Source: a virus
Virus record (IMG/VR): IMGVR_UViG_3300020057_000121
Coordinates: 1 to 28,773 of that record
Length of the DNA: 28,773 bases
Direction: 5' to 3' (one strand)
A program made the position numbers and the translations under genes. The notes beneath the pieces were generated by a model that was given only the letters and a program-made list of their open reading frames with translations, was not told the origin of the DNA and did no database searches. Shown here in pieces: positions 4,480-13,246 of this stretch (position 1 is its first letter; every line of letters begins with the position of its first letter).

Positions 4480-4643
4480 ATGTTACGGACTATTCTTTGA
4501 AAGGTATGTGGCAGAGACTCCTAATCCATTCGACACGGATAACGGAGGACGTTTCTTCAAAAGCGTTCGGAAGCGGCTCTTGCTGATTGCACACAATCGG
4601 CTATGAGTCCCTGCTACATACAAAAATACAACAAGGGTTCATT

Positions 4644-4982
4644 GTGAATGACAAAATAATAGGGCGGCCAATCCGCCTAAACAGACACAACCTCCTTTTA
4701 AAAGGAGGCAAACGATATGCCGAGGTAATTTTCATCGGCGATGTTCATTATGGTTCTCCACAATTCGACAAGAAGAAATTCTTGGCGATGCTTGAGTACT
4801 GTATTCAAAACAACCTCTACGTCTTCTTAATGGGAGACTTGATTGAGATGGCTACGCGTCATTCAGTTGGCGCGGGAGTTTACGAACAGGAATCAAATGG
4901 GGATTCTCAACACGAGCAAATGGTCGAGTGGCTTAAACCACTTGCCAAGAAAAAGCTCATATTGGGAACCCACAGTGGCAAT
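4644..4982 (+). CDS. Calcineurin-like metallophosphoesterase, exon 1
   Basis: This is the N-terminal 113 codons of an intron-split gene. The GTG at 4644 is preferred because AAGGG lies 7 bases upstream and the protein begins sensibly (VNDKIIGRPIRL); the frame is open back to a TTG at 4587. The metal-binding motifs of the family are visible: FIGDVHYGS (D and H) and LMGDLIEMATR (D). The exon ends in GTHSGN, the first half of the invariant GNHE motif, and without splicing it stops at once (TAA 4983-4985). Joined to 5349-5789 it gives a 259-aa enzyme acting on phosphoester bonds; the substrate is unknown. It has its own promoter and terminator. Confidence 0.85.
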
Positions 4983-5348
4983 TAACAAAAATGGTTGCCC
5001 CCTCTAGCGATAGAGGTAAAAAAAATCTGGCCATTTGCTGGAATAACCTTAGAGCCTTAACTACGAAACAGTAATTCGAAAGGATAAGCTGAAAGTGAAA
5101 ATGTTAAGGATTGGTCAATCAGCAGGAAAGGCTCCGCACATTGCTTGACTTAAGTAATAGGAGAATCCTCAACGACTACACGCCAGACACTTGTGCATAA
5201 TCACGAAGTATTGATTCTTTAAAGGGTTACACCTTGAAGAATATGGAGTGGGTTACACACTCTGAAAATTCAAGACGAGGCTCTGTCAGCCAGCACAAGT
5301 TGAAGATATAGTCTGAACTGCATGGAGACATGCAGATTAACAAAATTA
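4983..5348 (+). ncRNA. Group I self-splicing intron
   Basis: This 366-nt intron has no open reading frame of note. Core pairings can be written by hand. P1: exon GGCAAU (4977-4982) with GUUGCC (4994-4999), including the required U-G at the splice site. P2: CCUCUA/UAGAGG (5001-5016) with a GCGA loop. P3: UCUGGC (5026-5031) / GCCAGA (5182-5187). P4: UGCUG (5036-5040) / CAGCA (5120-5124). P5: CCUUA (5047-5051) / UAAGG (5105-5109). P7: GACUA (5174-5178) / UAGUC (5309-5313) within AAGAUAUAGUC. P8: 5189-5195 / 5202-5209. P9: CUGCAUG/CAUGCAG (5318-5335) with a GAGA loop. P10: exon CAU (5349-5351) with AUG (4991-4993). Removal rebuilds GNHEER exactly. The predicted last base is A rather than G. Confidence 0.9.
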
Positions 5349-5789
5349 CATGAAGAAAGAGCATACAAAGAGACTGGTGTTAATATTGCGAAAGCATTGG
5401 CACGAGAACTCTGTATTCCTTATCTTGGTGACGCTTGTTGGAGTGAGTTCAGAGTCGGTACTGAAAAGTACTCTCTCTATTCACTCCACGGCAGGACAGG
5501 TTCGCGGTTTGACGGCACAGCACTACTTGCACTGGAACGAATTTCAACCTCGTTCTTTGCAGACCTAGTGGCCATGGGACATACCCATAAGTGCATCAAC
5601 TCCGCAATCTTAATCCAACGGGTAATCGACGGGAAAGTTAAGGAGCATAAAAAGTTCCTACTCATTACTGGTCATTACCTTCGCTATGACGGCGGCTACG
5701 GTCAAACACTCGGTTTACCTATCGGAAAACTTGGCTCTCCGAAAGTTAAATTCTTCGCAGACAAACACGACCTTTTAATTAGTTGGTAA
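5349..5789 (+). CDS. Calcineurin-like metallophosphoesterase, exon 2
   Basis: These 147 codons including the stop complete the phosphoesterase. The exon begins with HEERAYKETGV, so the spliced product reads GTHSGNHEERAYKETG, the expected GNHE metal/catalytic motif. Later motifs are ADLVAMGHTHKC (GHTH metal ligands) and LLITGHYLRYDGGYG. An apparent independent start at 5322 lies inside intron stem P9 and would give a protein lacking half the active site, so it is not a real start. Unspliced RNA can only give an inactive N-terminal fragment, so activity depends on splicing. A terminator follows five bases after the stop. Confidence 0.87.
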   Translation, partial: HEERAYKETGVNIAKALARELCIPYLGDACWSEFRVGTEKYSLYSLHGRTGSRFDGTALLALERISTSFFADLVAMGHTHKCINSAILIQRVIDGKVKEHKKFLLITGHYLRYDGGYGQTLGLPIGKLGSPKVKFFADKHDLLISW

Positions 5790-7009: not shown

Positions 7010-7034
7010 AAGCCACTTTAGTAGGTGGCTTTTT
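7010..7034 (+). terminator. Rho-independent terminator
   Basis: The 7-bp stem AAGCCAC (7010-7016) / GTGGCTT (7025-7031) is followed by TTT. It separates the trypsin-fold gene from the replication region. Confidence 0.75.
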
Positions 7035-7058: not shown

Positions 7059-7067
7059 TTATCCACA
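7059..7067 (+). promoter_or_regulatory. DnaA box, perfect TTATCCACA
   Basis: A perfect DnaA-box nonamer lies 17 bases upstream of the -35-like sequence of the ribbon-helix-helix operon. The main box cluster is 2.2 kb downstream. It could let DnaA, or the phage DnaA-domain protein, control this promoter. Confidence 0.55.
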
Positions 7068-7075
7068 ACTAGCCC

Positions 7076-7104
7076 TTGCACAATTGTATACAATTGTATA
7101 CGAT
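7076..7104 (+). promoter_or_regulatory. Promoter with palindromic operator
   Basis: TTGCAC (7076-7081) and TACGAT (7099-7104) are spaced by 17 bases. Between them lies a perfect 16-bp palindrome GTATACAATTGTATAC (7086-7101), part of a tandem CAATTGTATA repeat. The gene six bases further on encodes a ribbon-helix-helix protein, so autoregulation by blocking the promoter is likely. Confidence 0.6.
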
Positions 7105-7916: not shown

Positions 7917-8969
7917 ATGACAAAAGCTAAAGAAAAGAAAATAGGTCTAGGTGTAACAAATACCATACAGGCCATTAAAGATAAATTTGGTGATGATTCT
8001 ATTATGCTAATGGATCAGCAAGCCATTGTAGGATTAGATGCAATACCTACAGGGTCCTTTGGTTTAAATATCGCTCTAGGCATCGGAGGACTGCCTAGGG
8101 GACGTATTGTAGAGATATTTGGTCCAGAGTCCAGTGGTAAGACAACCCTCGCTCTACACGCCATTTCTGAAGCTCAGAAGGCCAATCCAGAAGGTAACTG
8201 CGCTTTTATAGACGTAGAACATGCCATGGATCCAGAATATGCTAAAAAAATAGGTGTGGATATCAAAAAGCTTTATGTTTCTCAACCAGATTCCGCCGAA
8301 CAAGCATTAGATATGGTGGAGATAATGTTACAGTCCGGAGAATTTGATGTGATTGTAATTGACTCAGTGGCCGCTTTAACTCCAAAAGATGAAGTCGAAG
8401 GTGAGATGGGACAGCAATTTATGGGCAAGCAAGCTCGTTTGATGGGTCAAGCTATGCGTAAATTGACTGCTATAAGCGCAAAATCTAAAACAGTGATTAT
8501 CTTTATCAATCAGATCCGTATGATGCTTAATGTTTTTCCCGGAGGAAATCCAGAAACAACTCCCGGAGGTAAGGCATTAAAGTTTGCTGCTTCGGTCCGA
8601 TTAGATATACGCCGAATAGCTCAGATTAAAAAAGGAGATGAGATTCTAGGCGGAAGGGTCCGAGTTAAGGTGGTTAAAAATAAGGTGGCTCCTCCATGTC
8701 GAATAGCCGAGTTCGATCTTATGTACAACGAAGGAATATCTCGTGAAGGTGAGATCTTAGCGATGGGAGAAAAGATCGGTGTGGTAGAAAAATCCGGGCA
8801 TACCTACAAATATCTAGATATAAGCCTAGGTCGAGGATATGATGCCAGCCGCCAATATCTCAAAAACAACCCTAGTACAGCAGATATCATAGTTACTGAT
8901 ATTCTAAATAAATTGAAAGCAGAAGTTCCTGTAGAGAGTCCAGTAGTTGAAGAAGTATCTAATGAATAA
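7917..8969 (+). CDS. recA: RecA recombinase
   Basis: The protein has 350 aa, full length for RecA. Walker A is GPESSGKTT (69-77), the catalytic Glu101 lies in IDVEHAMDP, Walker B is in VIVIDS (145-150), loop L1 lies around 157-165, and loop L2 contains FINQIRM...GNPETTPGG. It forms filaments on single-stranded DNA and drives strand exchange. In a phage this serves recombination-dependent replication and repair. L2 is unusual: one residue longer before GNPETT than in E. coli RecA, with Pro in place of a Thr. The C-terminus ends in an acidic tail. It is followed after two bases by the DnaA-domain gene, so the two are co-transcribed. The gene is too divergent around L2 to be a recent host copy, but this was judged only by eye. 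Confidence 0.95.
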
Positions 8970-8971
8970 CA

Positions 8972-9364
8972 ATGTCACCTCAACGAAACTTATCAATCGA
9001 CGATATAGAAAACCTTATATACGCCATATATAAGGTTACTTCTATTGATTTTAAATCCATCAGCCGGAAGAAAAATATTGTTCTTGCTAGATGGGTCTCT
9101 TGGGTAGTTATATCTGAATATCTTGGTTTATCTTCTGTTTCAATAGGTAATCTACACAATCGAGATCACACTACTGTCTTACATGGTATGAGACAAGTAA
9201 AAAAAACACATGGAATTGATATACTTAGGTTCAAAGAAATGCTTGTGGATAAGTATAGGGACAACGTGTGGATAAACAACAGTTTAAATTCTAGAGAAAA
9301 AATTGTCCCCGTGATATCCACAGAAATAAATGCTCAAAAGTGGATAACTCATAAAGGAAAATAA
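8972..9364 (+). CDS. Stand-alone DnaA domain IV (origin-binding) protein
   Basis: The protein has 130 aa. Residues 6-80 match DnaA domain IV: a starting helix SIDDIENLIYAIYKVT, the basic loop SRKKNIVLAR (31-40), a helix WVSWVVISEYLGLS, then SIGNLHNRDHTTVLHG with the DnaA signature RDHTTV at 64-69. Full-length DnaA has about 450 aa; the AAA+ ATPase and domains I-II are absent and there is no room for them before 8972. The protein should bind TTATCCACA boxes but not assemble an ATP-dependent filament. At least four near-perfect boxes lie inside the 3' half of its own gene and three follow it. It may compete with or recruit host DnaA. Residues 95-130 have no known match. Confidence 0.85.
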   Translation: MSPQRNLSIDDIENLIYAIYKVTSIDFKSISRKKNIVLARWVSWVVISEYLGLSSVSIGNLHNRDHTTVLHGMRQVKKTHGIDILRFKEMLVDKYRDNVWINNSLNSREKIVPVISTEINAQKWITHKGK

Positions 9365-9588
9365 GGCTTTAAATATGGTTATATACTAGTTATACCCAAC
9401 TAATACCCGTTATCCACAGGTATATTAGTAATAATAAGGTTTTATATAAAAAATATAATTATTAAGAAACATGTGGATAACTACAAAATATTCGTCTTAG
9501 ATCTATCTTAGATTCGTCTTAGATTTGTCTTAAGTCGTTCTACAACACCTAAATGTCCGCATCGTAAAGTAAATCTTAGTTATCCACA
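9244..9588 (+). other. oriC-like replication origin candidate
   Basis: Seven DnaA-box-like nonamers lie in 345 bases. Perfect matches are 9244-9252 (-), 9267-9275 (-), 9410-9418 (+), 9472-9480 (-) and 9580-9588 (+); one-mismatch sites are 9314-9322 (+) and 9339-9347 (-). Right after the 9410 box comes GGTATATTAGTAATAATAAGG, resembling the DnaA-trio element, then an A/T-only stretch (about 9439-9466) suited to unwinding. Iterons follow at 9495. This box-trio-AT order is that of bacterial basal origin unwinding systems. The bases from 9365 to 9631 carry no gene. Confidence 0.75.
9495..9535 (+). repeat. Four 11-bp-period iterons (TCTTAGAT)
   Basis: TCTTAGAT occurs at 9495, 9506 and 9517, with a variant TCTTAAGT at 9528. 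The period is 11 bp, about one helical turn, so all copies face the same side of the DNA. It is a probable binding array for an initiator or regulator next to the DnaA boxes. Confidence 0.75.
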
Positions 9589-9631
9589 TGTTTTCTTGTA
9601 AAATAAAGCAATTAGTAGTAATATAGCAAGT

Positions 9632-9772
9632 ATGGATAAAATTACACGAACAGGAATATTTGTTTCCCCGGAAACACATTATAAATTAAAAAAAATGGCG
9701 GTGAACAAGAAAATGACTTTTGATGAGCTTTTACAATATCTCATTCTCATTGAGGAACAGAACAAAAAATAA
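9632..9772 (+). CDS. Small ribbon-helix-helix-like protein
   Basis: The protein has 46 aa starting 43 bases after the last DnaA box. ITRTGIFVSPETHYKLKKMA and KKMTFDELLQYLI give the strand-helix-helix pattern of Arc/MetJ-type DNA-binding proteins. It is a candidate binder of the iterons just upstream or a regulator of the following RNA. No ribosome binding site is evident, as is common here. Confidence 0.6.
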   Translation: MDKITRTGIFVSPETHYKLKKMAVNKKMTFDELLQYLILIEEQNKK

Positions 9773-9782
9773 AATATATTTT

Positions 9783-10067
9783 AGTGATTATGATGAGAGC
9801 GAATAGGATATAAGAAGTAAGGGTACTCTGGTCCCGACTGGAGTGCTACAGAGGGCTTTAATTCTATTCGTTCTCACATGATCATTAAAAAGTAGAATAG
9901 GCAATAGAGCGGATTAGTAGCGTTTGATAGAGCGGTTAGGCAGTACATCACATGGTGGGTAAACAGGAGTAGCTAGTATTTAGGCTGGCCACCGATACTG
10001 CAAGGTGAAAAAATACAGCGACTCCCGTTTGCCCATCATACGAGTAGGTGCAACTCCTACATGCCCC
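9783..10067 (+). ncRNA. Large structured non-coding RNA candidate
   Basis: The 316 bases between 9772 and 10089 hold no gene but strong inverted repeats. Hairpin 1: 9783-9806 pairs with 9864-9886 (about 23 bp, one bulged A, three G-U pairs), enclosing CTCTG/CAGAG. A linker carries two direct repeats, ATAGAGCGG(A)TTAG, at 9904 and 9927. Hairpin 2: 9954-9970 pairs with 10021-10037 (17 positions, two G-U, one A-C), continued by 9972-9981 with 10011-10019. Last is a T-arm-like hairpin GUAGG-UGCAACU-CCUAC (10044-10060). Wobble pairs in long stems favour an RNA. No tRNA, tmRNA, SRP or RNase P pattern fits. It lies between the origin and the methyltransferase. Confidence 0.65.
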
Positions 10068-10088
10068 ATTAGGTAATTAAATAATTAT

Positions 10089-13109: not shown

Positions 13110-13246
13110 TCGCCCTAAGGCGACTTAAACCGGTGAAATGGGGTCCTCCAGCACCTAGATATATATATTTATTGTGTCCTTGTGGGACAAGATAATACTA
13201 GCACATACACAAAGATAGTCAATCTTTTATAACAAGTTATACAAAG
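13110..13246 (+). promoter_or_regulatory. Leader of the late operon with inverted repeats
   Basis: The 225 bases before groEL hold a hairpin TCGCC-CTAA-GGCGA (13110-13123), whose T run lies on the minus side, and an imperfect palindrome CTTTTATAAC-AA-GTTATACAAAG (13224-13246) suited to a dimeric regulator. The A/T-rich stretch up to 13291 may hold the promoter. It is not the CIRCE heat-shock element. Confidence 0.4.

Follow-up and report, generated by a model that had tools for sequence, protein, structure and literature searches.

The window, meaning the whole stretch of DNA that was analysed, is the IMG/VR record IMGVR_UViG_3300020057_000121, a linear sequence of 28,773 bases with no end repeats. 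It belongs to a small phage that probably infects Patescibacteria. Directly behind its recA gene, and starting 2 bp past the recA stop codon, lies an ORF coding for an orphan DnaA domain IV, which is followed by a gene of the phage methyltransferase family phrog_799. DnaA boxes, a very A/T-rich element and an array of short direct repeats are found in the 3' end of this ORF and in the sequence beyond it (Table 1). A sixth perfect box is located upstream, between a terminator-like sequence (7010-7031) and tandem palindromes (7083-7104), and the operon that it heads runs through recA into the domain IV gene. The palindromes, ATTGTATACAAT and ATTGTATACGAT, overlap each other, precede a ribbon-helix-helix-like ORF and are likely an operator.

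Table 1. Features of the orphan domain IV locus and of the operon leading into it (window coordinates)
Feature	Position	Strand	Remarks
DnaA box TTATCCACA, sixth perfect, isolated	7059..7067	+	intergenic head of operon
recA	7917..8969	+	TIGR02012, 436 bits (cut-off 325); directly 5' of domain IV gene
Orphan DnaA domain IV gene	8972..9364	+	ORF, 130 aa; PF08299 and fold match
DnaA box TTATCCACA, perfect	9244..9252	-	coding 3' end, codons 91-94
DnaA box TTATCCACA, perfect	9267..9275	-	coding 3' end, codons 99-102
DnaA box-like ATATCCACA, 1 mismatch	9314..9322	+	coding 3' end
DnaA box-like TTATCCACT, 1 mismatch	9339..9347	-	coding 3' end
DnaA box TTATCCACA, perfect	9410..9418	+	points into A/T-rich element
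Candidate DNA-unwinding element	9421..9471	.	51 bp, 90% A+T; between inward-facing boxes 9410 and 9472
DnaA box TTATCCACA, perfect	9472..9480	-	points into A/T-rich element from the opposite side
Iteron-like array	9490..9532	+	TCTTAG/TCTTAA at 9495, 9506, 9517 and 9528; TRF
DnaA box TTATCCACA, perfect	9580..9588	+	shares inverted repeat with 9472 box
DnaA box-like TTATCCATA, 1 mismatch	9631..9639	-	faces 9580 box over a 76% A+T stretch
46-aa ORF, weakly ribbon-helix-helix-like	9632..9772	+	PF20605, E 0.1, below cut-off

The 130-aa protein matches the profile PF08299 (Bac_DnaA_C) over its full 69 positions (1-69) with residues 9-76, at 53.6 bits (cut-off 31.5) and an E-value of 2.3e-14. The full-length DnaA profile TIGR00362 scores 54.5 bits against a cut-off of 343.9 and is matched only at positions 343-420, and the profile scan detected no AAA+ ATPase domain. 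An AlphaFold model, based on a 3-sequence alignment, has a pLDDT of about 90 over residues 11-80 and is poor beyond residue 98; the protein is laid out as a domain (residues 9-79), a long helix (84-106) and a low-confidence tail (98-130). The top PDB folds for the model are the DnaA domain IV structures 1J1V, 3PVP and 8BTG. The entry 1J1V, a complex of the E. coli domain IV with a DnaA box, is both the best PDB match by sequence (E 1e-5) and the closest fold (E 2.7e-4, TM 0.73 on target), so that the structure prediction proposed as a check in an earlier, sequence-only reading of this DNA returned the expected domain. According to the alignment with 1J1V, the E. coli contact residues R399, R407, D433, H434, T435, T436 and R442 are kept as R32, R40, D65, H66, T67, T68 and R74, among them the TTATNCACA contact residues R399, D433, H434 and T435 (R32, D65, H66 and T67), whereas S400, Q408 and K443 are changed to K33, W41 and Q75. 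Profile and predicted fold thus agree with the sequence-only reading, which had described a protein with the DnaA signature and no ATPase domain, and indicate that it is a complete DnaA domain IV and not a full-length DnaA initiator. A passage of PMC5835720, citing Roth and Messer 1995, states that domain IV alone is sufficient for sequence-specific binding to duplex DNA.

The cluster at 9244-9588 contains five perfect TTATCCACA boxes and two with one mismatch, the seven nonamers that the sequence-only reading had picked out. In 300 simulations with a third-order Markov model, the mean was 0.51 perfect boxes per window and the maximum 2 per 345 bp, against the 5 observed, and dinucleotide shuffles point in the same direction. 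A host-type box cluster beyond chance is therefore present. Four of the seven sites (9244, 9267, 9314 and 9339) are situated within the coding 3' end of the domain IV gene, which in part specifies the low-confidence tail of the protein, and hence the DNA sites may shape the coding tail.

The A/T-rich element between the inward-facing boxes ranks second weakest among the 60-mers of the window by nearest-neighbour stacking, and its A+T level recurs in the window only near 13237. The trio-like TAGTAATAATAAGG (9426-9439) and the A/T-only run (9440-9465) that had been noticed past the 9410 box are indeed there. Their interpretation as a DnaA-trio is not supported. DnaA filaments proceed 3' to 5' along the trio strand (PMC6669920), and the strand complementary to the DnaA-trio reads 5'-YTD-3' (PMC8235120); by this published polarity the plus-strand TAGTAATAATAA past the 9410 box lies on the wrong one of the two strands. 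Within 16 bp of a box and on the strand that a trio would occupy, the 9410 box has an NTN run of 5 (P 0.05 per site) and the 9472 box one of 8 (P 0.004), but strict YTD runs amount to only 1-2 at either box, and A/T-richness would account for the match. The DnaA-trio as named was rejected, with a run near chance and, for the 9410 box, the wrong strand. The iteron-like array has an 11-bp period and about 3.9 copies, with an extra TCTTAG at 9574, and is enclosed by a 17-bp perfect inverted repeat (9467-9483 and 9577-9593) that includes the 9472 and 9580 boxes. The 46-aa ORF that follows could possibly encode an iteron binder. Immediately downstream of it, positions 9773-10088 form a non-coding stretch of 316 bases with a predicted folding energy of -109.6 kcal/mol (z -6.3 vs shuffled sequence), folding into two long hairpins with a T-arm-like GTAGG-TGCAACT-CCTAC near its end; it gave no Rfam match above chance and no tRNA call. 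No GC-skew switch was found near 9.4 kb, where the skew stays positive, so that this check, also proposed earlier, lends no support to an origin; it is weak evidence either way since nearly all main genes of the window are on the plus strand.

The window RecA shares mostly 62-70% identity with RecA proteins throughout one order of Patescibacteria (genomes of 0.4-1.0 Mb), compared with 50-60% for other sampled Patescibacteria, where the single 65% match (G188) is itself a member of the candidate order, and at most 61% for genomes from other phyla. This similarity suggests that the host is probably within that order, which is named from RecA similarity only; recA could have come from a non-host. 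The 30 dnaA loci of the candidate host order contain 27 perfect TTATCCACA boxes where 1.1 are expected, and the host DnaA should therefore be able to read the phage boxes. A search for prophages with the same capsid returned none in 397 genomes of the order, but it had no positive control and is uninformative for that reason.

Part of the sequence-only reading was that the locus mimics a bacterial oriC. In the sense of a captured host sequence this is not supported: no meaningful nucleotide match to the 30 host dnaA regions was found, the identity of the domain to DnaAs of Patescibacteria does not exceed 45%, and in a tree it clusters with phage orphans and not with host DnaAs, at weak support (0.69-0.75). 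A recent capture of a host dnaA 3' end together with oriC is accordingly not supported by identity, nucleotide comparison or tree. The same observations weigh against an assembly artefact in which such a fragment was joined to a phage contig, as do the facts that the gene for the domain is short, has a start of its own and is followed by the phage methyltransferase gene. The stretch occurs in one contig only, and the adjoining recA resembles host recA, which would fit an artefact; we nevertheless regard it as highly improbable.

No helicase, primase, polymerase or replication initiator was recognised among the window proteins scanned, and the DNA-metabolism genes are recA, a metallophosphoesterase/exonuclease gene, endonuclease genes and a methyltransferase gene. 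The linear record may be incomplete, so that an initiator could lie outside it, a point that we counted against an origin at this locus. A sister phage (G130; 29,135 bases), whose portal, GroEL and capsid proteins are 56%, 63% and 80% identical to those of the window phage, encodes a replication initiation protein, recognised by its PHROG match (E 1e-14), and has neither PF08299 nor a box cluster. Domain IV and box cluster are likewise missing from the stretches examined of two further relatives (L357 and L359). From these differences, the initiation module appears to have been swapped within the phage group. No second contig with the domain IV and box stretch was found, and the locus is known from one contig.

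Phage-borne proteins of this kind are otherwise common. A scan of IMG/VR viral contigs for RDHTTVxH codons, among the matches listed, points to at least about 100 orphan domain IV genes, and the Big Fantastic Virus Database (BFVD) holds many such proteins labelled 'DnaA C-terminal'. Those from uncultured Caudovirales in BFVD and those of phrog_16091 and phrog_27829 are, like the window protein, domain IV only, with no ATPase and about 80-200 aa. The phrog_16091 profile matches the 130-aa protein weakly (E 0.047, residues 7-98) and also matches full DnaAs; candidate phrog_16091 orphans in the host order were rejected, as nearly all, among the matches listed, are full-length DnaAs. A single-sequence search of IMG/VR found no close homologues of the 130-aa protein. 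Some phage orphan genes adjoin O-like or DnaD-like initiators. Among the 109 orphan loci surveyed (window locus included; picked by codon pattern among the matches listed), the window locus is the only one with a box cluster, defined as at least 2 perfect or at least 3 degenerate boxes, within 1 kb, and in this it differs from the other 108. These other loci, among the matches listed, show no excess of boxes (8 observed vs 7.7 expected in 1.05 Mb), and, conversely, PF08299 is absent from all 80 of the IMG/VR contigs examined that have two direct boxes within 30 bp. The arrangement of gene plus boxes, which the sequence-only reading had suggested looking for in related phages, is thus absent from G130, from the stretches examined of L357 and L359 and from the other listed loci. 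Orphan domain IV is a familiar and widespread kind of phage protein, and it is the pairing with boxes that is unusual. INPHARED matches of the MT83xxxx series were rejected as orphans, being DnaAs of 414-476 aa with an ATPase domain. The INPHARED records MT835965, MT837266, MT838540, MT838777, MT838945 and OR846603, labelled as phage, encode bacterial-type DnaA with an ATPase domain, and some of them may therefore be bacterial sequence. No study of the function of orphan DnaA domain IV proteins was found in the literature searched.

The boxes beside the gene suggest that the phage borrows the replication-start system of its host. The best reading, to which we would give an even chance, is a host-DnaA-dependent phage origin combined with a phage-encoded, ATPase-less, box-binding regulator. 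We hypothesize that a replication origin of host style extends from about 9244 to 9640, that its perfect boxes are occupied by host DnaA, and that the inward-facing boxes at 9410 and 9472 serve to open the 51-bp element between them, which would then be the loading place for host DnaB and the replisome. The phage domain IV protein would occupy the same boxes; having no AAA+ domain it could not build an opening filament, and would hence work as an occupancy regulator that times when host DnaA fires the phage origin. It may also hold firing back, displace DnaA from the phage origin, as the sequence-only reading had proposed, or flag the boxes for a different factor. That the locus acts as an origin, that it uses host DnaA and that the orphan regulates and does not help are all inferred here. 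The host-type origin of the sequence-only reading is supported by the domain IV fold, the box excess, the meltable element and the absence of a recognised initiator, and not by a DnaA-trio or the GC skew. We also counted against the best reading that most phage orphan genes, among the matches listed, have no nearby boxes, from which it follows that the usual role of the family needs no boxes in cis. The more specific proposal, that an oriC-type phage origin with a dedicated cis-acting, ATPase-less domain IV replaces the usual initiator gene and lets the phage time firing by host DnaA, is tentative and, on balance, doubtful.

The position of the 7059 box in an intergenic operon head makes transcriptional feedback possible, and the orphan, acting at this box, may tune how its own operon, recA included, is transcribed. 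Autorepression had earlier been proposed from the four boxes in the gene's own 3' coding end; those boxes exist, and repression there is less likely than via the 7059 box. The orphan could also be mainly a transcription regulator, with the 7059 box and the boxes at 9244-9588 as operators for the early operon and downstream genes, and with no origin at all. The perfect box beside the tandem palindromes would fit such a role, and there is a precedent in the gene transfer agent activator GafA (PMC9638019), which activates promoters with a DnaA-like N-terminal domain; in Hyphomicrobiales, a small DnaA-like gene stands in front of gafA. The 9410-9588 cluster, on the other hand, encloses a strongly A/T-rich element and iterons with no obvious promoter (the region does not exceed shuffled sequence in its number of promoter-like sites), and several boxes around a weakly melting element resemble origins more than operators, for which reasons we consider purely transcriptional regulation rather unlikely.

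Somewhat less probable still is an action in trans, with the orphan occupying host oriC boxes and blocking new rounds of chromosome replication, the phage boxes then being a host-DnaA-dependent origin or a decoy. The same nonamer is found in the dnaA regions of the host order, and the orphan loci listed, mostly without boxes and at chance level overall, suggest that the family often acts elsewhere; yet the phage's own cluster would be blocked as well, short of a difference in level or timing. The cluster could also be a DnaA sink like datA, titrating host DnaA from host oriC: the phage genome is multicopy, and its five perfect boxes are presumably of high affinity. Such a sink would need neither an A/T-rich element between inward-facing boxes nor iterons, and it would meet competition from the domain IV that the phage itself encodes, which makes it quite improbable. 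The preferred host-DnaA-dependent origin has relatives among known systems. In iteron plasmid and lambda-type origins, DnaA boxes, an A/T-rich element and short direct repeats occur in one locus, and the window locus has the same combination, although no Rep or O was recognised and its repeats are 11 bp and few. It resembles bacterial oriC regions with a basal unwinding system, such as B. subtilis incC and H. pylori oriC2, in that a TTATCCACA cluster adjoins the coding end of a domain IV and boxes aim into an A/T-rich element; it differs from them in having no convincing DnaA-trio and no full-length dnaA, and adds iteron-like repeats and symmetric inward-facing boxes. GafA of gene transfer agents shares with the window protein a DnaA-like DNA-binding domain outside DnaA, but its second domain, which is sigma-like, was not seen in the window protein, and GafA also binds the omega subunit of RNA polymerase (PMC9638019). 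Among the listed orphan loci compared, it is here alone that a likely DNA target adjoins the gene, and a single fragment of 700 bp would therefore suffice for testing what an orphan does. If the best reading is true, a host-type origin and a small regulator have taken over from the initiator gene in a phage, and the case comes from Patescibacteria, a phylum whose phage biology is little known.

Elsewhere in the window, a divergent phage groEL (13292-15001; 570 aa; phrog_5725) is kept by the relatives at 31-63% identity, and just 5' of it, at 13234, is the place where the window melts most easily. In L359, low-complexity repeats (AHGAHGAQGA and RSVRSMRSL, in different frames) lie at 5434-5730 within a larger ORF. 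A group I intron at 4973-5335 (82 bits with the Rfam model RF00028) interrupts the metallophosphoesterase/'DNA repair exonuclease' gene of the window, whose two halves (4587-4985 and 5322-5789) correspond to neighbouring parts of phrog_7339.
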